From assembly GCA_031181105.1 (NCBI GenBank), contig JAPSLD010000007.1, positions 1 to 33,798 on the forward strand: DNA of 33,798 bases, read 5' to 3'. Within the stretch, counting starts at the first letter, position 1. Every line of letters starts with the position of its first letter. The notes beneath the pieces were generated by a model. The model was not told the DNA's origin and did no database searches. It worked only from the letters and a program-made list of their open reading frames with translations. The stretch comes from Isoptericola sp. GTDB taxonomy: Bacteria > Actinomycetota > Actinomycetes > Actinomycetales > Cellulomonadaceae. This document shows positions 1,928-22,015 of the stretch, piece after piece. The position numbers were made by a program, and so were the translations under genes.

Positions 1928-2650
1928 CTAGGCGCGGGCGGCGGCCTTGCCGGGCGTGCCGTCCGGCACCACGGCGCGCAGCGCGTACCGGCTGCCGCCC
2001 CACACCACGTAGAGCAGCGGGGCTGCGGCGAGCCCGAGGCCCACGGCGGGCCGTGCGACGACGACCGACGCCAGCAGCCCGAGCACCAGCAGCGACGCCG
2101 CGCTGGCGTACCAGCGCCGCACGGCCAGGTAGAGGGATGCGCGCAGCAGGTCGCGCAGCCGCGTGGTGCGGAGCTCGGGCACGGCCGCGAGCGCCTGGAC
2201 CGTGGTGGCCACGACCAGCACGATCAGGGTCACGAACACCGGGATGGCCACCGCGCCGGCCCGCGCGCCCCAGACGGCCGCCACGTCGACCGCCAGCACG
2301 ACGACGAGCGCCGTGGCGAGGGCGCCGATCGCGACCGCCCGCCGGAAGTGCGTCCGGTAGGCGCGCCAGTAGGTGCGCGCCGGCGTCGCCGGGCCGGCGG
2401 CCGAGAGCTCGGAGAACACCGCGAACGCGGCGACGAGCGCCGGCGCGACCAGCGGGGCGACGACCGCGTACGCGGGCCAGGAGACGACCGGGTCGGTCGT
2501 CATGAGGAGCACCACGGCGGGCAGGCACGCCACGACCAGCAGCAGGTTCGTCACCAGGCCGGTGTAGACGGTGCCGAACACCATCTCGTACATCTCCTGC
2601 GAGACCAGGCGGCGCCGGCCGCCGGGGTGTCGCGCGGACGCGGCGCTCAT
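1928..2650 (-). CDS. DUF624 (YesL-like) membrane protein
   Basis: A 240-residue integral membrane protein of the DUF624/YesL family, whose members recur in sugar ABC transporter operons without an assigned role. The N-terminal half carries the YEMVFGTVYTGLVTNLLLVV segment typical of the family. About five to six hydrophobic helices follow, with the family-like block ARTYWRAYRTHFRRA between them. The ATG (2650-2648) overlaps the stop of the second permease as ATGA, which fixes the start; upstream in-frame sequence is a shadow of the permease gene. It may assist assembly or regulation of the transporter, but this is only association. A long Ala/Val-rich composition makes topology uncertain. Confidence 0.8.
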   Translation of the reverse strand: MSAASARHPGGRRRLVSQEMYEMVFGTVYTGLVTNLLLVVACLPAVVLLMTTDPVVSWPAYAVVAPLVAPALVAAFAVFSELSAAGPATPARTYWRAYRTHFRRAVAIGALATALVVVLAVDVAAVWGARAGAVAIPVFVTLIVLVVATTVQALAAVPELRTTRLRDLLRASLYLAVRRWYASAASLLVLGLLASVVVARPAVGLGLAAAPLLYVVWGGSRYALRAVVPDGTPGKAAARA

Positions 2651-3585: not shown

Positions 3586-4547
3586 CAGGCGTCCCTCCTC
3601 TTGTTCCACAGGAACTGGAAGATGGTGATGAGGATGCAGATCAGGAACAGCGAGACGGCCACCGCCGAGGCGTAGCCGAACTGGTTCTCGACGAAGCCCT
3701 TGGCGTAGATGTACTGGCTGAGCACGAGGGTCGACTGGCCCGGTCCGCCGTTGGTCATGACGAGGATCAGGTCGAACACCTTGAAGCTCTGGATGGTCAG
3801 CATCACGGTGATGAAGAACGTCGTGGGCCGCAGGCACGGGATGGTGACGTTCCAGAACCGCTGCCACCCGTTGGCGCCGTCCATGCGTGCCGCCTCGTAC
3901 AGCTCGGCGGGCACCGTCTGCAGGCCCGCCAGGAACAGGAGCATGTAGTAGCCCATGTCGCGCCAGATGCTCACGAGGATCACGGCGGGCATCGACCAGT
4001 CGGCCGAGGTCGTCCACCCGGGCGGGTTCTCGACGCCGAGCGCGCCGAGGAACTGGTTGACCGGCCCGAACTCCGGGCTGAACAGCATGTTCCACACGAC
4101 GGCGATCGCGACGATCGACGTGATGTACGGGAAGAACGCGACCGTGCGGAAGAACGCGACGCCGCGCAGCTTGCGGTTGAGCAGCAGGGCCAGGCCGAGC
4201 GACGCCGCGAGCGTCAGGGGGATGTGGAACGCCGCGTAGTAGACGGTGTTCGTCAGGGCGGTGTGGTAGCTGCCGTCCCGCAGCAGGCGCGCGAAGTTGT
4301 CCAGGCCGACCCACTCCGCCGCCCCGAACACGTTCCAGCTCGTCAGCGACAGGTAGAACAGCGTGATGACCGGGACGAGCGTGAGCACCGCGAACCCGAC
4401 GAAGTTCGGCAGGATGAAGCTCCACCCGATGAGGGTGTTGCGCCGCTTCAGCCGGCTTCCCGGACGACGGCGGCTGCTGCGGCCCGGCGGGCCGCCGGGC
4501 CCGCGGGCGCCGGCCGGTGGCCGCTCGTCGACGGCGATGGTCGCCAT
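3585..4547 (-). CDS. Carbohydrate ABC transporter permease (MalF-like, CUT1)
   Basis: A 320-residue CUT1 permease subunit of the MalF/UgpA type. It has a basic, Gly/Pro-rich cytoplasmic N-terminus to about residue 37, six hydrophobic helices beginning near GWSFILPNFVGF, and an EAA loop YEAARMDGANGWQRFWNVTIP. The C-terminal block TNGGPGQSTLVLSQYIY is characteristic of this subunit. The start was placed at the ATG at 4547 because AAGGAG lies 7 nt upstream. The region between it and the solute-binding protein stop holds a strong hairpin and a phased repeat. Together with the MalG-like subunit it would form the channel for the imported oligosaccharide. Confidence 0.93.
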   Translation of the reverse strand: MATIAVDERPPAGARGPGGPPGRSSRRRPGSRLKRRNTLIGWSFILPNFVGFAVLTLVPVITLFYLSLTSWNVFGAAEWVGLDNFARLLRDGSYHTALTNTVYYAAFHIPLTLAASLGLALLLNRKLRGVAFFRTVAFFPYITSIVAIAVVWNMLFSPEFGPVNQFLGALGVENPPGWTTSADWSMPAVILVSIWRDMGYYMLLFLAGLQTVPAELYEAARMDGANGWQRFWNVTIPCLRPTTFFITVMLTIQSFKVFDLILVMTNGGPGQSTLVLSQYIYAKGFVENQFGYASAVAVSLFLICILITIFQFLWNKRRDA

Positions 4548-4693: not shown

Positions 4694-6016
4694 TCAGCCG
4701 ATGCCGACCTCGGACGCGACGCGGTTCTCGGCCTCGGCGAGGCCGTCCTCGACCGAGACCGAGCCGGACATGATCGCGGAGTGCGCGTCGTTCAGGATGT
4801 TCTGCACCGCGGCCGTCTCGGGTGCGACGGGGTTCTCGGGCTTGGTGTCGTGCTCCTGGAACGCGAAGCGCGACAGCTCGTCGGTCGGCATCCCCTCGAG
4901 GCCGAGGTAGGCGTCCAGCACCGCGTCGTTGAGCAGCGCCGGGGTGATGCCGATCTCGGCGAGGGCCTGCGCACCGCCCTCGCCCACCGCGAAGCGCACG
5001 AAGTCCTTCGCGGCCTCGACCTTCGCGTCGTCGATCGCCGGGTTGATCCCCATGCCGGTCGGGTCGCCGAACGTCACGGGCGTGGCGTCGGTACCCGTGG
5101 TCGAGGAGTCGTGCTGCGGGATGGGCGCGACGCCCCAGGCGAAGTCGTCCGCCTCGCCGGACTCCTGCTGGGTGATGAGCGTGGCGGCGTACCAGGTGCC
5201 CATCGGCAGCATCGCGGCCTGCTGGGTGCCGAACTGCGCCTGGTAGGTGAGCGAGTTCGTCGTGATCGTGCCGTAGTCCGTCTGCGCGCCCTCCTCCTGC
5301 AGCGCCAGGGAGCGCTCGTAGTACGGCGCGAGCCAGGAGTAGTCGCCGCCGAAGAGGTCGGCGCCGGGGGCCTGCGCGAGCGCGAAGCCCTGCAGGGTCG
5401 ACTGCCAGTTGTGCTGGTAGGTGCCGACGGCGGAGCTGCCCTCCGCCGTGAACGCCGCGGTGAGGTCGCGCGCGGCCTGGGCGTAGTCGTCCCACGTCCA
5501 GGAGCCGTCCGGCACGGCGACGCCGGCCTGCTCGAACAGGTCCTGGTTGTAGAACAGGACCCACGAGTCCTGGCGGTACGGGACCGCGTAGGTGCCGCCG
5601 TCCTCGACCTCGTAGTGCTCGAGACCCCCGGTGGCGGGGTCGAGGTCGGCCGCGACGTCCGAGATGTCGAGCAGCTGGTTGCCGGTCTGGAACGTCAGGT
5701 AGTTCTTGAGGTTCTTGATGATGTAGACGTCGGGGGCGGTCCCGGCGGCGAGGTCGGCCACGAGCGCGGTGTCGTAGTCGTTGCCGGCCGGGTACTCGAC
5801 GACCTCGACCGTCACGTCGGGGTTCTCGGCGCTGTACGCGTCGGCGATGGTCTGGAACTCCGGCGTGCTCGCCAGGCTCCAGCCCGCCAGCGTGAGGGTG
5901 ACGGGACCGTCGGCGGGCTCGCCGCCGCCGGCGGCGTCGCCGCCGCCGCTGCACGCGGTGAGGGCCAGTGCGACCGCGGCGGACGCGCCGAGCGCGGTCG
6001 GGATCGTGCGCTTCAT
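4694..6016 (-). CDS. Sugar ABC transporter solute-binding lipoprotein
   Basis: A 440-residue extracellular binding protein of the family 1 sugar-binding group. The N-terminus MKRTIPTALG leads into a hydrophobic stretch and a lipobox LTAC with Cys22 as the lipidation site, followed by a Gly/Ser/Asp linker. The mature fold begins VTLTLAGWSLASTPEF. Family segments include APDVYIIKNLKNYLTFQTG, SWVLFYNQDLFEQAGV and GSWTWDDYAQAARDLT. AAGGAG lies close upstream of the ATG at 6016. It is the second gene of the putative catabolic operon, between the DUF2264 gene and the two permeases, and should set the specificity of import. The ligand cannot be read from the sequence; acidic or unsaturated uronate oligosaccharides are inferred from the GH88, lyase and KduD neighbours. 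Confidence 0.92.
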   Translation of the reverse strand: MKRTIPTALGASAAVALALTACSGGGDAAGGGEPADGPVTLTLAGWSLASTPEFQTIADAYSAENPDVTVEVVEYPAGNDYDTALVADLAAGTAPDVYIIKNLKNYLTFQTGNQLLDISDVAADLDPATGGLEHYEVEDGGTYAVPYRQDSWVLFYNQDLFEQAGVAVPDGSWTWDDYAQAARDLTAAFTAEGSSAVGTYQHNWQSTLQGFALAQAPGADLFGGDYSWLAPYYERSLALQEEGAQTDYGTITTNSLTYQAQFGTQQAAMLPMGTWYAATLITQQESGEADDFAWGVAPIPQHDSSTTGTDATPVTFGDPTGMGINPAIDDAKVEAAKDFVRFAVGEGGAQALAEIGITPALLNDAVLDAYLGLEGMPTDELSRFAFQEHDTKPENPVAPETAAVQNILNDAHSAIMSGSVSVEDGLAEAENRVASEVGIG

Positions 6017-6123: not shown

Positions 6124-8049
6124 TCAGGGGAGCGAGGACGTGGTCCTCGCCCCGTCGGGCCAGTCGACGACGACGGTCGGCGCGGTCGCGCCCGGGTCGT
6201 CGAGGTGCGCGGCGGGTGGCCGCACGTCGGGGTCGTGCCCGGAGCGCCGCAGGGAGACGAGGGCGGCGACCCAGGTGCCGGGCCGGGCGGGAGCCTCGGC
6301 CCACGGGACGCGCGCGAGCGGGCCGAGGGGGCTCGCGTCGTCGCGCCGCGTCTCGCCCGTCGTGAGCGTCCCGACGAGCGGCACGACGGCGGACTCCAGC
6401 CCGTCGCCCTCGACGACGGGCCAGCCGCAGATCCGCAGGGCGGGGCCCGCGCCGTCGGCCGCCTCGGCGGCGAGCGCGTCGACGCGCACGCAGCGCACCT
6501 CCCAAGGCCCCCGCACGAGCGAGACGACGGTCAGCGTGCCGGCGTCCGTGGTCCGGCCGGAGTAGCCCGAGCCGTGGTGGTGCTGGTCGGCGTCGGGCGT
6601 CAGCCAGCGCACGTCGGCGCGCGATGCCGCGACCGCCACGCGCGCGCCGTCGTCGGGCACGCCGGGCCCGCCGGACGGCTCGAGCCGCAGCTCGAGCGTC
6701 GTCATGCCGGACCGGTGCGTGGCCCGGCCGGACGCGTCGACGAGGACGGCGGACTGCTCGGCGGGCGACGCCCAGCTCGCGTCGTCGAGCCACGGGCTCG
6801 TGGCGGTCGAGTACCCGAGCCGCGCGTACAGCGGCGAGTCACCCGTGCGCGCGCCGGGCAGCGCGTGGTCCGTGCCGTGGTTGACGACGCGCACGACGCC
6901 GTCGGACCGGGTGCCGCTGACGATCCAGCCGGGTGCGCGCACGGTGCGCAGGACGTCCCCGGTCTCGACGGGCAGCGGCTCCTCGGGGGCGGTCCAGGCG
7001 GGGTGGTCGGCGGGCAGCGCGAGCCCGAGGAGACCCTTGCTGGCCCAGTACGGCGAGCCGGGACCCGAGTAGGACTGGGCGATCCGCGGCCACGCGTGGT
7101 GCCAGCCGAGCGTGAGCAGACCGTCGTCGTCCGGGGCGCCGCGGTCGGCGAAGTGCCCGACGACGCCGGAGGCGGCGCGGCGCAGCAGCCCCGGCGAGAC
7201 GGACGGGACGTCCGCGATCGCGCCGACCCAGAACGGGGCGGCCGCGGCGAAGCGGTAGGCGAGCGAGCGCCCCTGCACCAGCGGCGACCCGTCCGCGCCG
7301 ACGAGCGCGACCGCGTCGAGGAGGAACCGGTCGAGGAGCGCGCGGTCGCGCTCGCGGCGGGGCGCGGCGAGGTCGCCGGCGCCGGCCATGCGGGCCCACA
7401 GGGTGGGGTAGAGGTGCAGCGCCCAGCCCGCGTAGTGGTCGTAGGAGCGCTCGGCGCCGTCGGACATCCAGCCGTCCGCACGCTCGAACGTGTCGTGCGT
7501 CGCCAGGTCCTCCGCCATCTCGTCGAGCGAGTGCGGGCCGCCGACCGATCGCAGGAAGGTCTGCACGACGAGCCGGAACCACACCCAGTTGATGCGCGGG
7601 TACGTGTCGTCGCCCACGGCCTCGGCGAGGTAGTCGACGACCCGCTCCTGCACGCCGGCGTCGAGCCGGTCCCAGACCCACGGCCGCGTCATGTCGAGCA
7701 CGAGCGCGAGGGACGCGGCCTCCACCTTGGCCTGGGGGTGCTCCGACATCCGCACCCAGCGGTCGGGCGCGTGCGGGTCGGTGCCCGCGGCGAGGCCGGC
7801 GGCGTAGCGCTCGGCGTACCCGTGCGGGTCGGCGCCGCGCTCCCCCGCGAGGCGGAAGCCGGCGAGCAGGAACGTGCGCGCGAAGCCCTCGAGCCCGTCC
7901 ACGGCGCGCCCGTACCCGCCCTCGGGCCCGGGCAGCGTGACGAGCGCGCCGCCGGGTGAGGCGTACGGCCGCACGGCGGCGAGCATGCGGTCCGCGAGGT
8001 CGGCCCAGCGTTGCCGGTCCCACCCCGTGAACGTCGCGTGCGGTGTCAT
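6124..8049 (-). CDS. DUF2264 domain protein, probable carbohydrate-active enzyme
   Basis: A 641-residue protein with the DUF2264 fold, expected to be an alpha/alpha toroid followed by a beta-rich C-terminal part. Recognisable segments include GFARTFLLAGFRLAGE, NWVWFRLVVQTFLRS, ERSYDHYAGWALHLYPTLWA, HHAWPRIAQSYSGPGSPYWA and SKGLLGLALP. It has no signal peptide and is probably cytoplasmic. It is the first gene of the minus-strand operon and shares a divergent promoter region with the heparinase-like gene. Members of this family often sit in glycan-use loci, and I believe some are assigned to a glucuronidase-type glycoside hydrolase family, but I am not certain of that link. ATG at 8049 was chosen over longer in-frame sequence because GAAGGA precedes it and family homology begins there. 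Confidence 0.82.
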   Translation of the reverse strand: MTPHATFTGWDRQRWADLADRMLAAVRPYASPGGALVTLPGPEGGYGRAVDGLEGFARTFLLAGFRLAGERGADPHGYAERYAAGLAAGTDPHAPDRWVRMSEHPQAKVEAASLALVLDMTRPWVWDRLDAGVQERVVDYLAEAVGDDTYPRINWVWFRLVVQTFLRSVGGPHSLDEMAEDLATHDTFERADGWMSDGAERSYDHYAGWALHLYPTLWARMAGAGDLAAPRRERDRALLDRFLLDAVALVGADGSPLVQGRSLAYRFAAAAPFWVGAIADVPSVSPGLLRRAASGVVGHFADRGAPDDDGLLTLGWHHAWPRIAQSYSGPGSPYWASKGLLGLALPADHPAWTAPEEPLPVETGDVLRTVRAPGWIVSGTRSDGVVRVVNHGTDHALPGARTGDSPLYARLGYSTATSPWLDDASWASPAEQSAVLVDASGRATHRSGMTTLELRLEPSGGPGVPDDGARVAVAASRADVRWLTPDADQHHHGSGYSGRTTDAGTLTVVSLVRGPWEVRCVRVDALAAEAADGAGPALRICGWPVVEGDGLESAVVPLVGTLTTGETRRDDASPLGPLARVPWAEAPARPGTWVAALVSLRRSGHDPDVRPPAAHLDDPGATAPTVVVDWPDGARTTSSLP

Positions 8050-8134
8050 CGCATCCTTCTTCGTCGAAGCTCTCGGTGCCGTCCCTGTCCGGGGCGGAAC
8101 CCCGGTCCGATCGACCACGATCGAACGAGACCGG

Positions 8135-8163
8135 AGTCAACCGTTCAGGCTTGTTCTTGTCAA
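8135..8163 (-). promoter_or_regulatory. Putative promoter of the DUF2264/ABC/GH88 operon
   Basis: On the minus strand TTGACA (8163-8158) is followed after 17 nt by TTGACT (8140-8135), a consensus -35 with a weak -10, about 85 nt before the DUF2264 ATG. A plus-strand TTGTTC (8151-8156) with TACTGT (8175-8180) at 18-nt spacing could serve the divergent gene. Both are pattern matches only. Confidence 0.4.
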
Positions 8164-8183
8164 GGCCGCTGCTGTACTGTCAT

Positions 8184-8198
8184 GATCGTTTGTGATCG
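8184..8198. promoter_or_regulatory. Putative operator GATCGTTTGTGATCG
   Basis: The 15-mer GATCGTTTGTGATCG contains two GATCG half-sites as a direct repeat around TTTGT. It matches 14 of 15 bases of the site at 15059-15073 upstream of the GH59-like gene, and its TTTGTGATCG core recurs inverted at 15160-15169. It falls near the predicted start of the plus-strand transcript. The likely ligand is the DeoR-LacI regulator encoded at 10219; this is inferred from co-occurrence. Confidence 0.65.
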
Positions 8199-8230
8199 GT
8201 CCCTGCATCGCCGCTGCTCGACGAGGAGAG

Positions 8231-10222
8231 ATGGCCACCGACGACCACCTGCGCCCACCGGACGAGGCGCTGCCCGTACCGCCCGCCGGCGACCGCGGAA
8301 CCTGGGACCTCGGGTCCGGGTCCGCCGACCGGCCCACCCGCGCGGCGCTGCTGGCCGGCGCCGAGCGCGACCTGGGCACCCCGTGGCCCACGCCGCTGGC
8401 GAGCACGGCCGCGCGCCTGCACCGCGACGGCGACCGCGACACGCACGAGCAGCTCGTGTTCGCCCGCCAGCGGCGCCTGACGCGCGCCGTCGTGGCGGCG
8501 GCCTCCACGCTCGAGGACCGCTGGGTCGACGAGGCGGCGGACGGCCTGTGGCTGCTCTGCGAGCAGAGCTCGTGGTGCTGGCCGGCGCACGACGACGCGT
8601 TCCCGGCCCACGGGTCCGTCCTGCCGGTCACGGCGCACCCGTACCTCGACCTCGGCGCGGGCGAGGTCGCCGGCCAGGTCGCCTGGGCCGACCACGTGCT
8701 CGGCGACGTCCTCGACGCGCGCTACCCCGGCCTGCGCGCCCGCCTGCGGCGGGAGGTCCGCGCGCGCGTGCTGGACCCGTTCGTCGGCCGCCGGGACTGG
8801 CACTGGCTCGGGCTCGACGGCGACGTGCACAACTGGAACCCCTGGATCCACGGCAACGTCCTGGTCGCCGCGCTGCGGCTGCTCGACGGCGCCGGTGACG
8901 GCGCGCTGCGGGCGCACGTCGTCGACCTCGTGGTCGAGGGGCTCGACCGGTACGTCGCGTCGCTTCCGGACGACGGCGCGATCGACGAGGGGTACGCGTA
9001 CTGGTGGAACGGGGCCTGCCGGGCGCTCGAGGCGTTCGACCTGCTGGCGCACGCCACCGGCGGGGCGCTCGACGCGCTCGCGCCCGAGGCCGCCACCGCG
9101 CCGGCGCTGCGCGCCACGGTCGCCTTCCCGCACCGGATGCACCTCGGCGACGGCTGGTACCTCAACCTCGCCGACGGCCAGGCGCGGCCGTCGGCCGAGC
9201 AGCCCTGGCACGCGCTGCACCGCGCGGCGCGGCGGGTCGACGACCCCGAGGCGGCGGCGCACGCGGCGGCGCACCGTCGCGCGGACGCACCCGTCGCGGT
9301 CGACGCCGACGGCCTCGGGCGCCTCCTGCGCGCGCTCACGGACGCCGAGTGGTGCCGCGCCGCACCGCCGGCCGCACCCCCGCACCCGGGCGAGGTCTGG
9401 CTGCCGTCGACCCAGGTGCTGCTCGCCCGGGAGCGGGCCGGGACCCGGGCCGGCCTGACCCTCGCGGTCAAGGGCGGGCACAACGGCGAGCACCACAACC
9501 ACAACGACGTCGGCGGGGTGGTCGTCGCGTCCGACGGCGTGCCCGTCGTCGTGGACGCGGGCCGCCCCACCTACACGGCGCAGACCTTCGGGCCCGACCG
9601 GTACGCGATCTGGACCATGCAGTCGTCGTGGCACTCGGTGCCGGAGGTCGCCGGCACGGCGCAGGGCGCCGGGCGCGAGTTCGCCGCGCGCGACGTGACG
9701 CCCTCGCTCGACGCCGGCCGGCCCGGCCTCTCGCTCGACGTCGCCGGCGCCTACCCGGTGACCGGCCTGCGCTCCTGGCTCCGTTCGGCGCACCTCGAGC
9801 GCCGCACGGCGCACGGCGCGGACCCGGCGGGCGCCCGCGTCGTCGTCGACGACGCGTGGGACCTGGAGCCGGACTCGAACCCGGAACCGGACCCGGACGA
9901 CGGAGCGCCCGGCGGCGCCCTCACGTCCGTGCGCTACCTGCTCGCGGGCGACGTCGACCTCGACCGTGGGACCGCCGTCGTGCGGCCGCTCGACGGCGCG
10001 ACGCCGGTGCGTCTCACGTGGCCGGCCGACGTGCCGGCCGCCCTGCACGAGCGTGCCCTCGACGACCCGATGCTCACCGACGTGTGGGGCGGCCGGCTGA
10101 CCCGGCTCGACCTCGACGTGACGGGACGCCGCGAGGTGCGGGTCGTCGTGGAGCAGCTGCACGAACCGCGCGCCGACGCGGGTTCGGGCACCATCGAGCC
10201 GACGACCAAGGAGGAGAAGTGA
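8231..10222 (+). CDS. Heparinase II/III-like enzyme, probable cytoplasmic polysaccharide lyase
   Basis: A 663-residue protein of the heparinase II/III type. An N-terminal alpha/alpha toroid (to about residue 380) carries DGDVHNWNPWIHGN (197-210) and IDEGYAYWWNG (251-261), which supply the Asn/His and Tyr expected at a lyase active site. The beta-sandwich part begins near 395 and contains the signature HHNHNDVGGVVV (421-432). Such enzymes cleave uronate-containing chains by beta-elimination, leaving an unsaturated uronate for GH88. It has no signal peptide, so it should act on imported oligosaccharides. The ATG at 8231 follows GAGGAG closely; an upstream GTG at 8192 falls inside the operator region and is less likely. 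Its stop overlaps the regulator start (GTGA). Substrate is not determinable here; heparin/heparan, hyaluronan-type or plant glucuronate glycans are all possible. Confidence 0.85.
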   Translation: MATDDHLRPPDEALPVPPAGDRGTWDLGSGSADRPTRAALLAGAERDLGTPWPTPLASTAARLHRDGDRDTHEQLVFARQRRLTRAVVAAASTLEDRWVDEAADGLWLLCEQSSWCWPAHDDAFPAHGSVLPVTAHPYLDLGAGEVAGQVAWADHVLGDVLDARYPGLRARLRREVRARVLDPFVGRRDWHWLGLDGDVHNWNPWIHGNVLVAALRLLDGAGDGALRAHVVDLVVEGLDRYVASLPDDGAIDEGYAYWWNGACRALEAFDLLAHATGGALDALAPEAATAPALRATVAFPHRMHLGDGWYLNLADGQARPSAEQPWHALHRAARRVDDPEAAAHAAAHRRADAPVAVDADGLGRLLRALTDAEWCRAAPPAAPPHPGEVWLPSTQVLLARERAGTRAGLTLAVKGGHNGEHHNHNDVGGVVVASDGVPVVVDAGRPTYTAQTFGPDRYAIWTMQSSWHSVPEVAGTAQGAGREFAARDVTPSLDAGRPGLSLDVAGAYPVTGLRSWLRSAHLERRTAHGADPAGARVVVDDAWDLEPDSNPEPDPDDGAPGGALTSVRYLLAGDVDLDRGTAVVRPLDGATPVRLTWPADVPAALHERALDDPMLTDVWGGRLTRLDLDVTGRREVRVVVEQLHEPRADAGSGTIEPTTKEEK

Positions 10223-11319
10223 CCATCGACCCCGGCCCCCGGGCGCCGTTGCCCGCCGAGCGCCGCGCACACCTGCTGGCGGCGCTCGACCGTGACGGCG
10301 TCGTGCGCGTCGCCGACCTCACCGAGGAGCTCGGCGTCACGGCGGTGACGGTGCGGCGCGACATCATGCAGCTCGAGCGCGAGGGGCTGCTGTCACGCGT
10401 GCACGGCGGTGCCGTCGCGGCCGGGAACGGCAGCTCGGGCCCGCACCGTTCCTCGACCGAGACGATCGGGGTGCTGGTCCCCTCGCTCGACTACTACTGG
10501 CCCGGCGTCGTGCGCGGCATGGAGGCCGAGGCCCGCCAGCACGGGATGCGCGTCGTGCTGCGGGGGTCGTCGTACGACGCGACCGACGAACGGCCCGTGC
10601 TGCGCCGGCTCGCCGAGACCGAGGGCGTCCGGGGCATCATCCTGGCGCCGCGCACCGACGGGCCCCACGCCCAGGACGTGGCCCAGTGGCTCGCGACCTC
10701 GGGCCTGCCGTCCGTGCTGGTCGAGCGGGAGGCGGCGCTCGCACCGCACCGCGAGGCGCTCGAGTCGGTCGTGTCCGACCACGCGCTCGGGGCGCTCATG
10801 GCCGTGCACCACCTGGCCGACCTGAGGCACCGCCGCGTGGGCCTCGTGCTCTCGCGCGAGTCGCCGACGTCGCGCAAGATCGCCGCGGGCTGGCGCGCGG
10901 CGTGCGCCGAGCTCGGGCTGTCCACCGACGAGCACTTCGAGCGGCTCGCGCCCGACCGCCGCACCCCGGAGTTCCCGGGCGTCGTCGAGGAGGTCGTCGA
11001 GACGGCCGTCCGCTCGGGCACGACCGCGCTGCTCGTGCACTCCGACCCCGAGGCGTCCGCCGTCGTGCAGGAGGCCATGGACCGGGGCCTGTCTGTGCCG
11101 GGCGACCTGTCCGTCGTCGCGTACGACGACGAGGTCGCGGGACTGTTCAGCCCCGCGATGACGGCCGTGCGGCCGCCGCGCGCCTCCGTGGGGCACGCCG
11201 CCGTCGACCTGCTGGTCAAGCGGCTCGCGGACCCCGAGCGGCCGGTGCACCGGATGGCGATCAGCCCGCGGCTCGTGGTCCGCGAGTCGACAGGGCCGGT
11301 CCGCGCGACGACGTCGTGA
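10219..11319 (+). CDS. DeoR-type HTH fused to LacI-type sensor domain, transcriptional regulator
   Basis: A 366-residue regulator of mixed architecture. Residues about 14-64 are a DeoR winged helix-turn-helix (VADLTEELGVTAVTVRRDIM, then LEREGLLSRVHGGAV). Residues about 82-355 are a LacI/GalR periplasmic-binding-like domain (TIGVLVPSLDYYWPGVVRGM ... HRRVGLVLSRES ... DLSVVAYDDEVAGLFSPAMT). The usual DeoR sugar-phosphate sensor domain is replaced, which suggests it senses a free sugar or oligosaccharide. It starts with GTG at 10219, preceded by AGGAGG and overlapping the lyase stop as GTGA. It is the obvious local regulator for the sugar operon, the lyase and the GH59 gene, which carry shared candidate operators. 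Repressor rather than activator is the likelier role. Confidence 0.88.
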   Translation: MTIDPGPRAPLPAERRAHLLAALDRDGVVRVADLTEELGVTAVTVRRDIMQLEREGLLSRVHGGAVAAGNGSSGPHRSSTETIGVLVPSLDYYWPGVVRGMEAEARQHGMRVVLRGSSYDATDERPVLRRLAETEGVRGIILAPRTDGPHAQDVAQWLATSGLPSVLVEREAALAPHREALESVVSDHALGALMAVHHLADLRHRRVGLVLSRESPTSRKIAAGWRAACAELGLSTDEHFERLAPDRRTPEFPGVVEEVVETAVRSGTTALLVHSDPEASAVVQEAMDRGLSVPGDLSVVAYDDEVAGLFSPAMTAVRPPRASVGHAAVDLLVKRLADPERPVHRMAISPRLVVRESTGPVRATTS

Positions 11320-11325
11320 TGGTCT

Positions 11326-11414
11326 GACGGCTACGGGTGAGGTGGCGCTCGCTCGGATGAGTCGGTCGCTGCGCTCCCTACGCTCTCGCGCGCACCACCT
11401 CACCCGTGGCCGTC
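11326..11414. terminator. Long bidirectional inverted repeat between convergent genes
   Basis: A 20-bp stem pairs 11326-11345 (GACGGCTACGGGTGAGGTGG) with 11395-11414, one mismatch that is a G-U wobble in one direction. A 49-nt GC-rich loop separates the arms. It sits exactly between the regulator stop (plus) and the GH59 stop (minus), so it would work for both. No U-run is present. Confidence 0.75.
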
Positions 11415-11423
11415 ATGTGTGGC

Positions 11424-14400
11424 TCAGCTCGCCGCGACGGCGAACCAGCTCAGCACCGGCGCCTCGGTGCCGCCGTCGGCGGCGACGCGGAACGTCACGA
11501 CCGTCTCCTCGTCGAGCGTGAAGCTCCCCGACAGCACCGCGCTGCGCCCGCTGCTGCCGTTGGGGAAGGCCACCGAGCCGAGGCGTTCCGTACGCGCCTG
11601 GCCGTCCGACGTCGTCCACGACACCGACGTGGCCATGTTCCGGGCCCGGCCGTTGCCGACGTTCCACCACTCGGTGTGGGCCGACGACAGCTCGTAGGTC
11701 CCGGCAGGCAGCGTGAGCCGGTACTCGAGGGGCTGCGACGTCCCGGCCGTGTAGTAGCCCGTCTCGCGGGTCTTGTCGTACGGGTTGGTCCCGAGCGGCC
11801 CCTTGGCCGAGTACGGCGCGACGCGGCCCCAGCCCGCGCCGGCCGACCACAGGGCGTCGGGAACGTCGTTGCGCAGCGTCCCGCCGTCGGCCTCGACCAG
11901 CGCCCGGACCGCGGGGTACGCGGCACCGCCGCCGACCGCGGGCGCGTTGGCGTCGACGAAGTACACGACGTCGTCCGGGACGACCTCGACGATCGTCGAG
12001 ACCCGCAGCGAGGGGTCGGCCCGGAACGTGCCGTCGACACGGACCATCGCGTACGGCTGGTCGAACGCGCCCTCGGGCACGAACCAGTCGACCGCGGCGT
12101 CGATCGTCGGGCCGGCCTCCGACGTCGCCGCGACCGTCTCCGGGAGGTCGGGCGCCTGGCCGACGACCGTCGCCACGCGGGCGACCTCGTCGACGACCGC
12201 GACGGGCCGGTCCTCCGGCGCGACCTTGCGCACCTTCGCCCCGCCCGAGAGCACGTCGACGCCGTCGAGCGTGAACGTGCCGGACACGACGCGCACCGTG
12301 ACGCTGTGGGCCTTCTGCTGCAGGCCGCGCAGCCAGTACGAGGTCTCCCGCGAGCCCGCCGAGCCGACCCGCTCCGTGCGCGGGGCACGGCCGTCGACCG
12401 AGACCTCGAGCGTCGCGGCACCCGTCGCGCCGAACAGGTTCAGGCCCGTCCCCGTGAAGTCGAGGCGGACGGACTGGCCCGTGGTGAGCACGTGCTGCGT
12501 GCGGTTGAAGTGGGCGAAGCCCGCCTGCACGAACCGCGCGCCGTCCGGGTACGTCACGCGGGCGTCGGAGTCGTCGATCTTCTCCGACTTCCACGCCTGG
12601 CCCTTGATCGGCGTGACGGCGAGGTCGTCGTACCAGGTGTTGTAGAACCCGCTCACCAGCGAGACGCGGCCGGTGAGCACCGGGTTGGCCGCGGGGTCCA
12701 CCCACTGGACCAGCCGCTCGTCGTCGAGCCGCGCGGTGATGACGTTCTCCCGCGCCTCGACCGACAGCGTGTGCCACGCGCCGGCGTCGAACCCGTCGAG
12801 CGTGCCCGACGCGACGACCGAGTCGAGCTTGCGCAGCTCCCACGTGCCGTCGTCGTGCACCCGCACGGCGTACGTGGCCTGGTCGCCGCCGCGCGCGACG
12901 ACCTGCCGCACGCCGAGGCCCGCGAAGTTGGGCAGGCTCTCGTCGCGCACCACCGTGTCGAGGCGGAAGTCGACGGTCGCGGTGTAGTCGGCCCACCGGT
13001 GGTCGCCGAGCACGGTCGAGGGCGCGGCGGTCTGCAGGACGTCCTGGCGCCCGTTGCCCCACACGTTCCACGTGAAGCCGCGGTTCTCGGCATGGATCTG
13101 CTGCTGGACCACGTTGCCGCGCGAGCGGTCGCCGCTCGCGACGACCTCGAACGCGCCGTCCTGGTCCGCGGTGTAGCGCGGCGCGCCGCCGCGGCGCTCG
13201 ACGTACGTCATCTCCTCGCCGCCGACCTCGACGGTCGGGTACTCGTCGTACTCGAAGTCGTCGCGGTAGGGCAGCTCGAGGATGCTGTCCTCAGCCTCGG
13301 GCGCGTAGTCGCCGGGCGTGTACTCCTGCGCGGTGCCGTGCACGCCGTGCGGCAGGGTCGACAGCGTGAGGATCGAGTACGGCTCGACCTTGACGCGGTA
13401 CACGTCGTGCTCGGTGCCGCCGATGGTCTCGGTGCGCACGGGCGCGTAGTAGCCGATGTTCTGGAAGTAGTCGGCGTCGTACGTCTCGCCCTTCTCGGGG
13501 CCCGTGGTCTCCCAGGCGTGCAGCGGGCGGCCGGACTCGCCGAGGTCGGCCACCTTGACCTCGAAGTACCGGGCCTTGCTCGTGTTGTTCGCGTGCACCT
13601 GCGTGAGCCCGGGCTCGCCGTCGGCGCCCGCGGGCGAGCGCAGGGTCATGACGGTGCGGGTCGAGGTGTCGACGTTGGTGCCGCCGTCGCCCTTGGTCCC
13701 GTCGCCGCCCGTGGCACCCTCGATGTACTCCCAGCCGTGCTCGGCGAACTGGTGGAAGTGGCGCACGGTGACGATCCCGACGTCGCCCTCCCAGTAGCCG
13801 GACCAGGGGTCGGACGCGCGCACGAGGTGCTTGGGCGAGTACTGCGCCCCCTCGTACATCGCGCTGACCGCGGGCTGGAAGAGGAAGGTCGTCATGTGCG
13901 CGGGGTGGTCGCCCGCACCGCTCCAGCGGTAGGCGTTGATGAAGCGGTCCGCGATGTCGACGGCGCCGACGGTGCCGCCGATGCCCCCGCGCTCGGGGTC
14001 CGCGGCGACGCGGTACTGCGGGTCGATCATCGGCGCGACGCCCTCGGAGTACAGGACCGGCATCCCGAACTCCTTGTTCAGCCGCGTGACGTTGGGTCCG
14101 CCCACGATGTCGTAGTGGAAGCCCAGCGCGTCCACCTGCTCGAGCGCCTCGGGGCTCGCCAGGATCCGGCCGGCGATGTTGTCGCCCTCGCGGTAGGAGT
14201 CGAGCGCGACGATCTTGATCTTCGAGTAGTCGTAGCGCGCGTCGTCGGCCGTGGCGTCGCGCTCGAGCCACTTCGCGGCCTGGACGGTCCAGCGCAGCTC
14301 GGCGTCCTGGTACGTGGAGCCGCGCACCTCGTTCTGCGACGGGCTCAGCCAGTCGAACTCGACGCCGTAGGTGTCGTACGCCGCGTCGATGGTCTCCTTG

Positions 14401-15014
14401 TACCACTGGTAGCGCTTGGTCCAGTCGTTGCCGGTCCAGGACGGCTCCGCCCAGCGCAGCGCCTCGACCTCGACGTCCGGGTTGATCGTCTGCGCGTCGG
14501 CGATGAAGTGGAAGCCGGCGCCGCGCAGCACGTTGGCGGGCTCGTCGGCGCTGCGCTTCGTGGCGGGCTCGGCGCCCGACGACGTGTTGCTGTCCGCTCC
14601 GAGCTCGACCTTGATGTGCGTGAGGCCCGCACCCTCGACCGGGTCGAACAGCATGCGCATGATCGCCCAGTAGGCGTCGGGGTTCTCCTCCTTGTAGTCG
14701 AGGAGGAGGTTGCCCGTGTTGTTGCACGACACCGAGCCGAAGCCGCCGAAGACGTTGTACGGCGTGCCGTCCGGGCGCCGCTCGACGTCGTCGCCGTCGA
14801 CGACGAGCTCGCGCCAGTCGATCGACGGGTCGTCGAGGCGCAGCTCGGGAAGCTCGTCCGCCGCCGGTGCGGCGACCGTCGTGCCCGGGCCGGCGGCTGC
14901 CGGTCCGGCGGCGAGCGCCGTCGTCGGGGCGACCACGCCTGCAGCGGCGAGCGACAGCGCGGCCGCAGCCGACGCCGTGAGCCGCACGCGCCGTGACGCA
15001 GGGAGAGTTCTCAT
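11424..15014 (-). CDS. Secreted GH59-like multidomain glycoside hydrolase
   Basis: A 1196-residue exported protein. The basic N-terminus MRTLPASRRVRLTAS and the hydrophobic stretch ending near TTALAAG form a signal peptide, cleaved near residue 36. The catalytic part (about 85-430) resembles bacterial GH59 galactocerebrosidase-like enzymes: GGFGSVSCNN, AGLTHIKVELGADSN and WAEPSWTGNDW. Glu229 in SPSQNEV and Glu324 in LYSEGVAP are the likely acid/base and nucleophile of this clan A barrel. A laminin-G/concanavalin-like domain follows (about 640-805), then a probable carbohydrate-binding beta domain (805-935), an Ig-like domain near 938-1000 and a C-terminal beta domain. There is no LPXTG or SLH anchor, so it is probably released. 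Galactose-type beta-linkages are the expected target. The ATG at 15014 has AGGA 6 nt upstream. Confidence 0.8.
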   Translation of the reverse strand: MRTLPASRRVRLTASAAAALSLAAAGVVAPTTALAAGPAAAGPGTTVAAPAADELPELRLDDPSIDWRELVVDGDDVERRPDGTPYNVFGGFGSVSCNNTGNLLLDYKEENPDAYWAIMRMLFDPVEGAGLTHIKVELGADSNTSSGAEPATKRSADEPANVLRGAGFHFIADAQTINPDVEVEALRWAEPSWTGNDWTKRYQWYKETIDAAYDTYGVEFDWLSPSQNEVRGSTYQDAELRWTVQAAKWLERDATADDARYDYSKIKIVALDSYREGDNIAGRILASPEALEQVDALGFHYDIVGGPNVTRLNKEFGMPVLYSEGVAPMIDPQYRVAADPERGGIGGTVGAVDIADRFINAYRWSGAGDHPAHMTTFLFQPAVSAMYEGAQYSPKHLVRASDPWSGYWEGDVGIVTVRHFHQFAEHGWEYIEGATGGDGTKGDGGTNVDTSTRTVMTLRSPAGADGEPGLTQVHANNTSKARYFEVKVADLGESGRPLHAWETTGPEKGETYDADYFQNIGYYAPVRTETIGGTEHDVYRVKVEPYSILTLSTLPHGVHGTAQEYTPGDYAPEAEDSILELPYRDDFEYDEYPTVEVGGEEMTYVERRGGAPRYTADQDGAFEVVASGDRSRGNVVQQQIHAENRGFTWNVWGNGRQDVLQTAAPSTVLGDHRWADYTATVDFRLDTVVRDESLPNFAGLGVRQVVARGGDQATYAVRVHDDGTWELRKLDSVVASGTLDGFDAGAWHTLSVEARENVITARLDDERLVQWVDPAANPVLTGRVSLVSGFYNTWYDDLAVTPIKGQAWKSEKIDDSDARVTYPDGARFVQAGFAHFNRTQHVLTTGQSVRLDFTGTGLNLFGATGAATLEVSVDGRAPRTERVGSAGSRETSYWLRGLQQKAHSVTVRVVSGTFTLDGVDVLSGGAKVRKVAPEDRPVAVVDEVARVATVVGQAPDLPETVAATSEAGPTIDAAVDWFVPEGAFDQPYAMVRVDGTFRADPSLRVSTIVEVVPDDVVYFVDANAPAVGGGAAYPAVRALVEADGGTLRNDVPDALWSAGAGWGRVAPYSAKGPLGTNPYDKTRETGYYTAGTSQPLEYRLTLPAGTYELSSAHTEWWNVGNGRARNMATSVSWTTSDGQARTERLGSVAFPNGSSGRSAVLSGSFTLDEETVVTFRVAADGGTEAPVLSWFAVAAS

Positions 15015-15058
15015 CGTTGATCCTGTCGTCGTTGACCATCAGGGACGCGGGGCGCCAT

Positions 15059-15079
15059 GATCGTCTGTGATCGTTTGTG
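15059..15079. promoter_or_regulatory. Putative DeoR-type operator upstream of the GH59-like gene
   Basis: GATCGTCTGTGATCG (15059-15073) is followed at once by TTTGTG, giving a direct-repeat array GATCG-TCTGT-GATCG-TTTGT. It lies 45 nt upstream of the GH59 start codon and differs by one base from the site at 8184-8198. A third related core, CGATCACAAA (TTTGTGATCG inverted), lies at 15160-15169. The spacing of about 90 bp between the two local sites would allow looping. Confidence 0.65.
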
Positions 15080-15109
15080 CTCCGTCGGTTACGACGATGT
15101 CGCCGCGCG

Positions 15110-15123
15110 CGTACGAACGTACG
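15110..15123. promoter_or_regulatory. Perfect 14-bp palindrome CGTACGAACGTACG (AA centre)
   Basis: CGTACG, AA and CGTACG form an inverted repeat between the two GATCG-type sites in the GH59 upstream region. It could be an operator for a second regulator. I recognise no family that owns this sequence. Confidence 0.35.
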
Positions 15124-15159
15124 GACCCGAGCGGTGCGGCGTCAACGGCGCGGTTGAAA

Positions 15160-15169
15160 CGATCACAAA
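15160..15169 (-). promoter_or_regulatory. Third copy of the TTTGTGATCG core
   Basis: Read on the minus strand this is TTTGTGATCG, identical over 10 bases to 8189-8198, and it continues GTTT. It stands upstream of the GH59 gene and just beyond the end of the tad operon. A single core like this occurs by chance less often than a random 10-mer would be noticed, but it is weaker evidence than the two longer sites. Confidence 0.45.
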
Positions 15170-15171
15170 GA

Positions 15172-15205
15172 CACAGCGCGCTGTGCTGTGCGGGGCCTCT
15201 CCCCG
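15172..15205 (-). terminator. Paired hairpins at the end of the tad operon
   Basis: Directly after the tadC stop, CGGGG (15191-15195) pairs with CCCCG (15201-15205) over a 5-nt loop. Next to it CACAGCGCGCTGTG (15172-15185) is a perfect 14-bp palindrome. Together they are the probable transcript end of the pilus operon. There is no clear U-run. Confidence 0.5.
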
Positions 15206-15206
15206 G

Positions 15207-16118
15207 TCAGGGCACGAGGCCACCTGAGAAGGCGCCGACGATGTCGATCACGACGGGCGTCATGAGGACGATGAACAGGACCGGCAGGATGCACAGCATG
15301 AGGGGCAGGAGGACCTTGACCGGCACCTTCTGCGCCTGCTCCTCGGCCCGCTGCCTCCGCTTGAGACGGACCTCTGCAGCCTGCGTGCGCAGCACGTCCC
15401 CGACGGAGATCCCGTGCGCGTCGGCCTGCAGGATGGCACGCACGAACCGCCGCAGGTCGGGGACGTAGGCGCGCTCCGCCAGGTCTTCGAGTGCCTGCCG
15501 ACGAGTGCGGCCCATCCGCATGTCCTGCAGGGTCCGCGTGAGCTCCTCGGCGAGGACGCCGTTGCCGTGGTCGGCGACGCGCGCCATCGCACCGTCGAAC
15601 CCCATGCCGGCCTCGACGGCGATGGTCATCTGGTCGAGCGTGTCGGCGAGCTCGAGCCGGATCCGCTGCTCGCGCGTCTGGCCGCGGCCGAGCAGCAACA
15701 GGTCGGGCACGAAGTACCCGCAGATCGCGACGACGACGAGCACGGCGGTCACGAACGGTGGCGCCTCTGCGGCTCCTGCCCACACGACCAGGAGGACGCC
15801 GACGGCGGCCAGGACGAGCTTCGTCGTCAGGAGCCCGTCGATCGTCCGGCCCGCCGGACGGCCTGCCCGGACGTGCTGACGCTCCAGCAAGGCCACGAGC
15901 GGCCGCGGGGTGAGCCGGCGTCCCACGGACGTGCCCGGACGTCGGACCGCGGCAGTCGGTGCCGTGGCCACCTGGACGTCGGCCGCGCTCGCGACCCCCC
16001 GTTGCAGGTTGGCGAGGCTGCGCCGCCGTTCGGGCGCGGCCGCGCTCGCCACGAGCCCGGTGAGGAGGGCCACCGCGGCAGCGACGGCGAAGGCGGCGAC
16101 GAGCACTGGCGTCGGCAT
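15207..16118 (-). CDS. tadC: TadC-like type II secretion F-domain protein
   Basis: A 303-residue inner-membrane platform protein of the Flp pilus machine. It has an N-terminal membrane segment, helices near residues 95-140, a T2SSF cytoplasmic domain (about 145-270, with LADTLDQMTIAVEAGMGFDGA and ILQADAHGISVGDVLRTQA) and a C-terminal hydrophobic helix (VLLPLMLCILPVLFIVLM). It starts one nucleotide after the tadB stop, so it is cotranscribed and probably coupled. TadB and TadC are expected to form the base that the TadA ATPase turns. It is the last gene of the operon. Confidence 0.92.
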   Translation of the reverse strand: MPTPVLVAAFAVAAAVALLTGLVASAAAPERRRSLANLQRGVASAADVQVATAPTAAVRRPGTSVGRRLTPRPLVALLERQHVRAGRPAGRTIDGLLTTKLVLAAVGVLLVVWAGAAEAPPFVTAVLVVVAICGYFVPDLLLLGRGQTREQRIRLELADTLDQMTIAVEAGMGFDGAMARVADHGNGVLAEELTRTLQDMRMGRTRRQALEDLAERAYVPDLRRFVRAILQADAHGISVGDVLRTQAAEVRLKRRQRAEEQAQKVPVKVLLPLMLCILPVLFIVLMTPVVIDIVGAFSGGLVP

Positions 16119-16119
16119 G

Positions 16120-17045
16120 TCAGAACTTGACCTTCACGACGGCGGCCATCCAGACGATGCCGATGACGAGCAGGATCAAGGCCACGACCAGCGCCACGAG
16201 GCCGACCAGGCTCTGGACGAACGGGGCGAGATAGGAGGGGTTGGCGAGCAGCAAGAACCCGGTCACGACGAACGGCAGGGCCACGAGGATGACGCCGGAC
16301 AGTCGCCCCTCGGCGCTCAGGGCGGCCACGTGGCGGCGGATCTCGTTGCGGTCGCGGATCGTCTTGCCGACACCGTCGAGCACGTCGGCGAGATTCCCGC
16401 CGATCTCCCGGTTGATCGCGATGGCCTGGGTCACCCAGTGGAAGTCCTCGTTGCGCATGCGCACCGCTGCCTCCTCGAGGGCGAAGGCCAGTGGCCGGCC
16501 GACCCTCGTCTCGTTGACGATCCGCCCCAGCTCCGACGCGGTCGGGTCCTCCGCCTCGCGCGCGACGCCGGCGAGCGCCTGCATGAGGCTGTGGCCCGCG
16601 CGCAGACCGCTCGCGAGGAGCTGCAGCGTGTCGTCGAGCTGGTCGGCGAACCTCTTCCGACGCCTGCTCGTGCGCGCGCGCAACCACAGCAGCGCGAGGA
16701 GCGGCCCCAGCAAGGCGAAGAGCACCAGGAGGACGGGTCCGCCGAGCAGCAGCCCGACCGCGGCGAGCACGACGGAGGCGACGATCGCGAGGAACACGAA
16801 CTCCTGGGGGCGCAGTCTCAGGCCGGCGAGGTCGAGCCTGACCGTGAGGCTCCCCTGGCGCCGCTGCATTGCCTTGCCGACGAGCATGGTCGCGGTCGCC
16901 GCCGCGTCGGCAAGCCTGCCCTCCTCCGGTCCCGCGACCGGGCGGCGCCGCGCCTTGGGGATCCGCGCGTGCCCCGGCGCGAGCACCAGCACCGCCGTCA
17001 GCGCGAGCCCCGCAGCCACGGCGATCGCTCCCCAGCCGGCCGGGT

Positions 17046-17049
<4 letters not shown>
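16120..17049 (-). CDS. tadB: TadB-like type II secretion F-domain protein
   Basis: A 309-residue inner-membrane platform protein, the partner of TadC. It has an N-terminal membrane helix, a central hydrophobic pair (about 86-125), a T2SSF domain (about 135-260, with FADQLDDTLQLLASGLRAGHS and NREIGGNLADVLDGVGKTIRD) and two C-terminal helices. The start is GTG at 17049-17047, which overlaps the tadA TGA as GTGA. No ATG is suitably placed, so the GTG is preferred. Confidence 0.92.
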
Positions 17050-18523
<1,474 letters not shown>

Positions 18524-18524
<1 letters not shown>

Positions 18525-19747
18525 CACGACACCTTCCGGCGGCCGGACGTGCGCGCGACGGGCGCGTCGTCCAGGTACGCCGCCTGCAGGGTGCGCAGCC
18601 GCTTCGACACCGGGTCCCGCGGCTGGTGGGTCACGAGCGGCACCCCCATGTTCATCGCCACGACGGCGGCCTTGCTGTGCGGCATCGAGGCGTCGACGCG
18701 CGTGCGGATGGTCGCCTGCACGTCGCTGAGGCTCAGGCCGGCTCGAGGGTCCGCGAAGTTGAGGACGATCCGGCGCGAGTCGGGCAGCATGCCGAGGTCG
18801 TGCAGGGCCTCGAGCTCCTTGCGCAGCCCGCGCACGCCCGGCACGTCCATGCTGGTGAGCAGCAGCGGGTCGGTCGTGTGGTCGAGCGCCGCGAGCGTGT
18901 GCGCACCGAGCCCGGCCGCGGTGTCGAGCACCACGTAGCGGAACTGCGACGCGAGCTGCACGAGGAGCGCTTCCACGTGCTCGGGCGTCACGGTTCCTCC
19001 CGCGGCCGGGTCCTCGGGCGCGCACACGACGAGCAGCCCGGAACCGTGCTGGGCGAGCTGCGTCTTGAGCGCGATCGGGTCCTCGTGGTTCCGGTGCCGG
19101 ACGATGTCGGCGAGGGTCGCCTCCGGCTCGAGACCGAGCGCGGTCGCGACGTCGCCGAACTGCAGGTCGAGGTCCACGAGCACCGTGGAGCCGGCCTGTG
19201 CCTGGGCTAGACCGACCGCGAGGTTCGTGGCGACCGTCGTCTTGCCCACGCCACCCTTCGGTGACAGCACCGAGACGACCCGGCCCGGGCGGGGCGCCGT
19301 CGGGGTGGGTGTCCAGGGGGGCTCGAGCCCGGTGTCCGGCACGGAGGCCGGTACGCCGACGGGAACGCGGCGCACCCGCGCCGCTTCACCGACTCGGGCC
19401 AGCACGTCGCGCAGGTGCTCGACGGAGACCTCGGCCGGCACGACGTCACGGACGCCGGCACGCAGCGCCGCGATCGCGAGCGCGTCGTCCGCCGTGCCGA
19501 CGAGAACGAGGCCCGTGCCGGGGAAGAGCCGGTCGAGACCTCCCGCGAGCTCGAGAGCCTCGCGCCGCGAGGTGGTGGTGTCGAGGACGACGATGTCAGG
19601 CAGCGGCGCGCCGCGGAGCTGGCCGAGGAACGCCGCCGGCTCCACCGAGAGTGGCGTCGCCGGGACGGTGATGCAGGCGCCGTCGGCGGCGGTGTGGACC
19701 CGCTCCTGGAGCGTGTGCGAGTCGGTGGCGAGCAGCACGTTGTTCAC
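18524..19747 (-). CDS. tadZ: TadZ/CpaE-like ParA-family localisation ATPase
   Basis: A 407-residue protein with an N-terminal receiver-like domain (about 1-125, without a clear phospho-acceptor context) and a C-terminal ParA/MinD-type ATPase. The deviant Walker A is SPKGGVGKTT (162-171), followed by VLVDLDLQFGDVATALGL and VVLDTAAGLG. TadZ/CpaE proteins place the pilus machine in the cell. The start is GTG at 19747, overlapping the CpaB-like stop as GTGA. The C-terminal tail ends in basic residues. CpaE is the alternative name. Confidence 0.9.
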
Positions 19748-20466
19748 TCGAAGATCACCTCCGGCGTCACGATCCGCGTGCCGTCCTCCGAGGCGTCCTC
19801 CGGCTCGATCGACAACCAGATCAGCTCGTACTCGGCGGCGTACACCACCTTCTCGGCGTCGGGAGCGGGGAGCGCCAGGGTGACCATGACGCTCTCGGCC
19901 GGAGGGCTCTCCGTCTCCTGGCCGTCCTCGCCCGTGACCTGGCGAGGGCCGCCCCGCACGTCGGTGACGAGCACCTTGTGCAGGGTGAGGTGCGTCGCCT
20001 GGGGAGGCTTCGCGTCGACGTCCAGCGAGACGAACACGCCGACCGTGTCGCCCGGCTCCAGCCCGCCGCCGACCACGCGGCGCGGCTCGAGCTCGATCGT
20101 CAGCTGGTGCAGGTCCGGCGGGACCTCGACCCTGGTCCGCCGGTCGTCCGGCGCCACGAATCGCGCCCCGACGAGCTGCTCGCCCGGCACCAGGTCGGCG
20201 GCCGCCACCCTTCCTTCGAGCGTGGCGAGGTCGGTGACGGCACCTGGGACGACCGTTCCGGCGGGAACCTCTCTGACCTCGACGAGCTCGCCGAGGGCCT
20301 CGGCCTCGGTACCCGCGGGGATCGGCTGCGCGACGACGAGCACGCTCGTCGGTTCCATCTCCGCCATCGCGCGGCGGTCCGCGCCGGCGGCGTACATGTA
20401 CGTAAGTGCTCCACCGGACACCGCCAGCACGGCGGCGACGACGATGGTGACGATGCGACGGGTCAC
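19744..20466 (-). CDS. cpaB: CpaB/RcpC-like SAF-domain pilus assembly protein
   Basis: A 240-residue protein with a single N-terminal membrane helix (VTIVVAAVLAVSGGALTYMY) and an extracytoplasmic SAF-type domain with VLVVAQPIPAGTEAEALGEL and GEQLVGARFVAPDD, followed by the RcpC/CpaB core VGVFVSLDVD. In Gram-negatives it works with the secretin; in an actinobacterium its role is unclear, perhaps at the peptidoglycan. The start is GTG at 20466, 7 nt after the TadG-like stop. Confidence 0.85.
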   Translation of the reverse strand: MTRRIVTIVVAAVLAVSGGALTYMYAAGADRRAMAEMEPTSVLVVAQPIPAGTEAEALGELVEVREVPAGTVVPGAVTDLATLEGRVAAADLVPGEQLVGARFVAPDDRRTRVEVPPDLHQLTIELEPRRVVGGGLEPGDTVGVFVSLDVDAKPPQATHLTLHKVLVTDVRGGPRQVTGEDGQETESPPAESVMVTLALPAPDAEKVVYAAEYELIWLSIEPEDASEDGTRIVTPEVIFE

Positions 20467-20473
20467 GATGTCC

Positions 20474-22000: not shown

Positions 22001-22015
22001 CTCCTCACGGCGTGG

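Follow-up and report, generated by a model that had tools for sequence, protein, structure and literature searches.

The stretch of DNA analysed here, a contig of 33,798 nucleotides from a soil bacterium of the genus Isoptericola (contig C269 of the draft assembly G000, which amounts to 2.75 Mb and is 74% complete; the whole contig is called the window below), carries a sugar locus in which short direct repeats recur at the promoters of a polysaccharide lyase and of a secreted enzyme of glycoside hydrolase family 59 (GH59). Our reading, to which we assign a probability of roughly 84%, is that these repeats are the operators of a hybrid repressor encoded in the locus itself, which would bridge two sites, O1 and O2, at the GH59 promoter and would be released from the DNA by a sugar. 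It builds on the sites and their conservation among 198 related genomes (G-, C- and L-numbers denote genomes, contigs and loci), on their position relative to predicted promoters, on their co-occurrence with the regulator and on the domains of that protein.

A sequence-only reading of this DNA had reported three related sequences, and all of them are found where it placed them: GATCGTTTGTGATCG at 8184-8198, GATCGTCTGTGATCG at 15059-15073 and CGATCACAAA at 15160-15169, the last being TTTGTGATCG when read on the minus strand. The natural repeat unit is TGATCGTTTG with a period of 10 bp, laid out as a pair at 8183-8198, a triple at 15058-15083 and an inverted pair at 15160-15175 in which only one unit is well kept. 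A pattern search of the whole genome, made with the possibility in mind that the motif is scattered at random, returned exactly two perfect matches of TGATCGNNNNTGATCG (TGATCG-N4-TGATCG) in the 2.75-Mb assembly, both inside the window; forms with one mismatch are scattered through the assembly, and a control with the reversed pattern gave 0 matches in the whole assembly even with one mismatch, so that the motif came through this check. The earlier statement that these are the only sites of their form therefore stands for the exact form, which is confined to the locus, and falls short in having missed a third unit at GH59 and a weaker copy at 8108-8123. Loose matching within the window (3 mismatches) yields no excess, with 3 sites found against 1.8 expected from shuffles, and for this reason the case for operators rests on the exact form together with its conservation. 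The same count is what can be said for a chance likeness of short GATC-rich words, an explanation whose probability we regard as next to nil, since the perfect matches are unique in the genome, kept across genera and tied to promoters, and such conservation contradicts chance.

A weight matrix trained on other genera only and then run across the whole window gave 29.1 bits at 8183, 23.7 at 15058 and 19.6 at 15068, followed by 12.5 bits at 15160, 11.3 at 8108 and 10.6 at 8112, the last three on the minus strand and the 8112 match overlapping that at 8108. These six best matches all lie inside two intergenic regions, with nothing comparable elsewhere in the window, and matches of at least 22 bits are expected at 0.011 per 33.8 kb. 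The three strong sites (8183, 15058, 15068) are beyond doubt as sequence features, and the proposal that the sites sit at the two promoter regions of the locus is borne out by the matrix ranking and by promoter predictions. The operators and promoters, as observed or predicted, are the following.

8108 to 8123, minus strand: weak candidate operator CGATCGTGGTCGATCG at the leftward promoter, from the other-genera matrix
8135 to 8140, minus strand: predicted -35 element (TTGACT) of the leftward promoter, inferred from AGTCAA being conserved in relatives
8157 to 8186, plus strand: predicted rightward promoter TTGTCA-N18-CATGAT with extended TG, which would drive the lyase and the regulator
8183 to 8198, plus strand: main operator TGATCGTTTGTGATCG, matched by pattern and matrix, overlapping the -10 box of the lyase-regulator promoter
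15058 to 15083, plus strand: GH59 operator O2, three 10-bp units TGATCGTCTG TGATCGTTTG TGCTCC, antisense to GH59 and centred at about +40
15116 to 15145, minus strand: predicted GH59 promoter TTGACG-N18-TACGTT between O1 and O2, placed from the layout in relatives
15160 to 15175, minus strand: GH59 operator O1 TGTGTCTTTGTGATCG, sense to GH59 and centred at about -58

At the lyase-regulator promoter, TTGTCA-N18-CATGAT is the sole promoter-like match in 8000-8300, with 0 matches in shuffles, and the main operator starts at the third base of its -10 box, being centred about -2.5 from the predicted start. Both the position and the sequence of this operator are kept in about 20 relatives, at the matching position of the promoter, which they retain as TTGTCAA ... 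TATGATCG; a block of the form TTGTCAA-N17-18-TATGATCGTTTCTGATCG occupies the corresponding position of their divergent promoter region. Since the operator overlaps the -10 box, a bound protein would block RNA polymerase, and the regulator thus most likely represses the lyase along with its own gene. Within one clade (L065, L066, L069, L070), the main operator stays over the -10 box with its orientation flipped (CGATCANNNNCGATCA).

The candidate reader of these sites is the second gene of the rightward operon.

10219 to 11319, plus strand: regulator with a DeoR-type winged helix (residues 15-67) and a LacI-type sugar sensor (residues 81-358), from Pfam and PDB matches

Its Pfam matches are HTH_DeoR (PF08220, 5.2e-14) and Peripla_BP_3 (PF13377, 2.2e-34), and its sensor part matches the structures of LacI, CcpA and RbsR as well as AraR-type 3TB6 in the PDB; in the C-terminal part a DeoR sensor domain was not found and only LacI-type Peripla_BP domains match. 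The N-terminal helix-turn-helix (HTH) is of the DeoR type, with no LacI-type HTH, and the sites are direct repeats with no palindromic operator among them. The inverted form TGATCGNTTNCGATCA is present at only 3 sites against 19 of the direct form, from which it follows that the repeat is direct. For regulators of the DeoR-family RhaR group, imperfect direct repeats with a periodicity of 10-11 bp have been reported (PMC3870299), and this style is found here in the 10-bp repeats of the window and its relatives and in an 11-bp form in another family. The suggestion that the half-sites are typical of DeoR targets accordingly holds as regards the fit of 10-bp direct repeats to a DeoR winged helix, and needs amending as regards the regulator, which is a hybrid and not a canonical DeoR protein according to Pfam.

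Co-occurrence also ties the motif to this protein: the perfect TGATCGNTTNTGATCG site is present in 15 of the 198 genomes, and 14 of these 15 carry a homologue of the regulator as opposed to 59/198 overall (Fisher p = 1.5e-7, the counts not being corrected for shared ancestry). The direct form with 11-bp spacing is present in 9 genomes, of which 8 have the regulator; in 3 genomes, from another family, it immediately precedes the regulator gene. Among the upstream regions of 31 hybrid-regulator genes, exact direct repeats of 6-mers are most frequent at a spacing of 10 bp (10/31, versus 1.4 in shuffles). The type of recognition helix (VT[AP]VT vs VSEVT) is enriched along with the motif (33/37 versus 14/29, p = 4e-4), and since this enrichment is not clean we do not take a strict helix-to-motif link as proof. 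A different, unlinked regulator might instead read the sites while the hybrid protein controls something else, as could be argued from genome G159, which has a perfect site without a close homologue of the regulator, and from the second hybrid regulator of the present genome; we hold this to be improbable in view of the strong co-occurrence, of the site in the promoter of the regulator's own operon across genera, and of duplicated regulators (L059, L060) that bear the motif at their own promoter beside a GH59 gene. The sequence comparisons thus make the regulator encoded in the locus the likely reader of the sites, and there is strong support for a shared operator governing the lyase, the regulator and GH59. 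The second hybrid regulator (35-36% identity), on contig C116 (L127:4615-7896), adjoins a second DUF2264-like gene, with no strong TGATCG repeat near it.

At the GH59 gene, the triple array of O2 is also present in L051, L129 and L138, its inverted partner lies 92-102 bp away, and an equivalent of O1 stands at the same distance in L051, L130, L131, L132, L139, L140, L054 and others. GH43-GH59 operons of Cellulosimicrobium and Oerskovia likewise bear flanking pairs, as do a second GH59 gene type of Isoptericola, an unlinked GH59 gene from a further genus (L096) and genes for secreted GH5 enzymes (L100, L101). Comparison of these promoters indicates that the GH59 element is a promoter-flanking operator pair rather than a single operator plus a stray half-site. 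The inverted pair could also be viewed as an RNA structure, i.e. a hairpin or the terminator of an upstream pilus operon, inasmuch as its arms can pair in a single strand and a terminator-like stem lies at 15171-15191; nevertheless, its folding is no better than that of shuffles (z -1.3), the predicted transcript start falls between the arms, unrelated genes that have no pilus operon upstream carry similar pairs, and both L096 sites share the same orientation, all of which renders this view very improbable.

Among 13 secreted-enzyme promoters with flanking pairs (many of them orthologous, about 5 independent, and all with predicted starts), O1 has its centre at -58.5 to -59.5 in 12 and at -49.5 in the remaining one, O2 is found between +18 and +40, and the distances between the centres of O1 and O2 fall into three groups of 77-79, 88-89 and 97-99 bp. 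Such steps of a helical turn suggest that the two sites are bridged, in the manner of GalR at gal, and gain or loss of 10-bp units could also explain them. The most serious competitor keeps the same regulator and operators and supposes that O1, near -58, activates through a class-I-like contact with RNA polymerase, that only O2 represses and that nothing is bridged. The constancy of O1 in 12 of the 13 promoters while O2 drifts from +18 to +40 speaks in its favour, as does the fact that -60 is the classical position for upstream contacts; on the other side, the main operator of the lyase-regulator promoter, at about -2.5, can only repress, and the steps of about 10 bp in O2 spacing fit phased bridging, even if tandem 10-bp units alone could yield them. 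We judge this activating role of O1 unlikely. In three loci (L059:10189-14312, L060:3437-8501 and L136:15500-21098), a duplicated regulator stands beside the second type of GH59 gene, with the same type of operator in the intergenic region.

Several observations weigh against the reading as a bridged, locus-encoded repressor system. The sites at 15160 and 8108 are individually weak by their matrix scores, with positions that match sites in relatives; the -10 box of GH59 in the window is poor, and a generic promoter scan of the window missed it, whereas relatives with the same layout have better ones (TTGACG-N17-TACTTT). TGATCG sites are weak or missing for many of the regulator's paralogues (about 40% identity), which implies that the exact operator sequence is specific to subgroups. 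Lastly, the leftward promoter in most other genera bears the palindrome CGAACACGTTCG instead of a TGATCG repeat, so that control of the leftward operon may differ.

The leftward promoter is indeed the place where the interpretation has its weakest link. It lies about 75 bp from the lyase-regulator promoter, which is the one served by the strong 8183 site. The leftward genes would depend for their control on the weak 8108-8123 site or on spill-over from the strong operator nearby. The weak site is identical in the closest relative, L051, and L052 and L060 have repeats with a GATCG core at that position. It had been predicted that one regulator governs the ATP-binding cassette (ABC) importer, lyase, GH88, KduD and GH59 genes; for the lyase and GH59, as for the regulator itself, this is strongly supported, while the ABC importer, GH88 and KduD have only the weaker 8108-8123 site, and their control by the same regulator, together with that of the DUF2264 gene, is plausible. 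The palindrome CGAACACGTTCG is absent from the window, is conserved in other genera and some Isoptericola, and lies between the -35 and -10 elements of the DUF2264/ABC promoter in L053, L054, L055, L056, L059, L060 and L061; it is possibly the operator of a second regulator.

Conservation of the locus extends to tens of genomes within its family and order, among them Isoptericola, Cellulosimicrobium, Oerskovia and Actinotalea, with DUF2264 (DUF, domain of unknown function), ABC importer, DUF624 and GH88 genes running leftward and the heparinase-like lyase and regulator rightward. The remaining genes of the locus in the window are these.

1 to 612, minus strand: KduD-type dehydrogenase, cut by the contig end (NCBIfam kduD, 5.6e-80)
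609 to 1865, minus strand: GH88 unsaturated glucuronyl hydrolase (Pfam Glyco_hydro_88; PDB 1VD5, 3e-94)
1928 to 2650, minus strand: DUF624 membrane protein, a transporter accessory (Pfam DUF624)
2647 to 3585, minus strand: sugar ABC importer permease 2 (Pfam BPD_transp_1)
3585 to 4547, minus strand: sugar ABC importer permease 1 (Pfam BPD_transp_1)
4694 to 6016, minus strand: sugar ABC importer solute-binding protein (Pfam SBP_bac_1)
6124 to 8049, minus strand: DUF2264 protein, relative of beta-glucuronic acid dehydratase, formerly GH154 (Pfam 6.9e-109; PDB 9O4U, 1.3e-21)
8231 to 10222, plus strand: heparinase II/III-like polysaccharide lyase, similar to polysaccharide lyase family 33 (PL33) (PDB 8R70-8R75, E 4e-74)
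11424 to 15014, minus strand: secreted GH59-family enzyme of 1196 aa (Pfam Glyco_hydro_59, 6.9e-67)

The lyase stands close to the PL33 structures 8R70-8R75 (PMC11848413), and beta-glucuronic acid dehydratases related to DUF2264 are described as priming saturated ends for GH88 (PMC12269599). KduD would complete a route for unsaturated uronides together with the lyase, the dehydratase relative and GH88; given that its gene is cut by the contig end, further genes of the operon may be missing. The hints as to substrate diverge: GH59, together with two members of the regulon elsewhere, GH5 and a GH43 related to exo-beta-1,3-galactanases, points to type II arabinogalactan, and the PL33-like lyase to a glucuronic-acid polymer. 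A galactan bearing glucuronic acid, e.g. type II arabinogalactan, is a reasonable guess.

From these observations we infer a mechanism in which the winged helix of the 10219-11319 protein would read tandem half-sites of 10 bp, TGATCGTTTG, with one to each turn of the DNA. Lacking an oligosaccharide with uronic acid, the presumed inducer, the regulator would cover the -10 box and the start at the lyase-regulator promoter, keeping this promoter shut and so autoregulating its own gene as well; at GH59, it would sit on two oppositely oriented flanking sites (about -58 and +40) and repress, probably by bridging them. A breakdown product imported by the ABC system would then bind the LacI-like sensor and free the DNA, so that the secreted GH59, the lyase, the unsaturated-uronide pathway and, provided that the leftward operon obeys the same protein, the importer would be turned on together.

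GalR at the E. coli gal operon acts from an external and an internal operator that flank the promoter, one at about -60 and the other downstream of the start. The present system resembles this arrangement in its LacI-type sugar sensor and in the two operators flanking a (here predicted) promoter, and departs from it in having a DeoR winged helix, direct-repeat half-sites and not palindromes, and a spacing of about 78-99 bp as opposed to about 114 in gal. AraR of Bacillus, whose HTH is of the GntR type, likewise joins a foreign HTH to a LacI-type sensor (its structure 3TB6 being matched by the sensor here); in contrast to the DeoR HTH and direct repeats described above, it works with palindromic operators. 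With the RhaR-group DeoR regulators (PMC3870299) the system shares the winged helix, at least two direct repeats of 10-11 bp period, an operator placed over the promoter and a sugar operon that is controlled locally; it differs from them in its LacI-type effector domain (Peripla_BP_3), which stands in place of the DeoR C-terminal sensor, and in having a half-site, TGATCGTTTG, peculiar to itself. Each ingredient, i.e. DeoR direct-repeat operators, LacI-type sensors and two-operator promoters, is known, and their combination appears new in the open-access literature searched, where no described operator of a DeoR/LacI hybrid was found, although subscription papers and regulon databases may hold one.

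It is conceivable, if rather doubtful, that a widespread actinobacterial class of regulators with DeoR helix and LacI sensor uses one-turn direct repeats in phased, promoter-flanking pairs to build a GalR-like repression loop. If true, the DNA-binding domain would bring the operator symmetry with it, and the sensor the logic of looping. The locus offers a simple system for asking which of the two domains sets that symmetry. The analysis also supplies this hybrid type of regulator with an operator and a regulon that can be tested, and by placing the secreted GH59 under one presumed signal with the unsaturated-uronide pathway inside the cell (PL33-like lyase, glucuronate dehydratase, GH88, KduD) it helps substrate prediction.

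Elsewhere in the genome, the near-match CGATCGTATATGATCG at C158:10269 forms an almost perfect palindrome near a GntR-type gene and was judged unrelated, and the near-palindrome CGATCATATACGATCG at L128:4270-4285, also close to a GntR-type regulator gene, looks like the own operator of that adjoining regulator. Directly upstream of the GH59 promoter, the window carries a run of Flp/tad-pilus-like genes (15207-22219, minus strand), assigned by inspection of their translations only.

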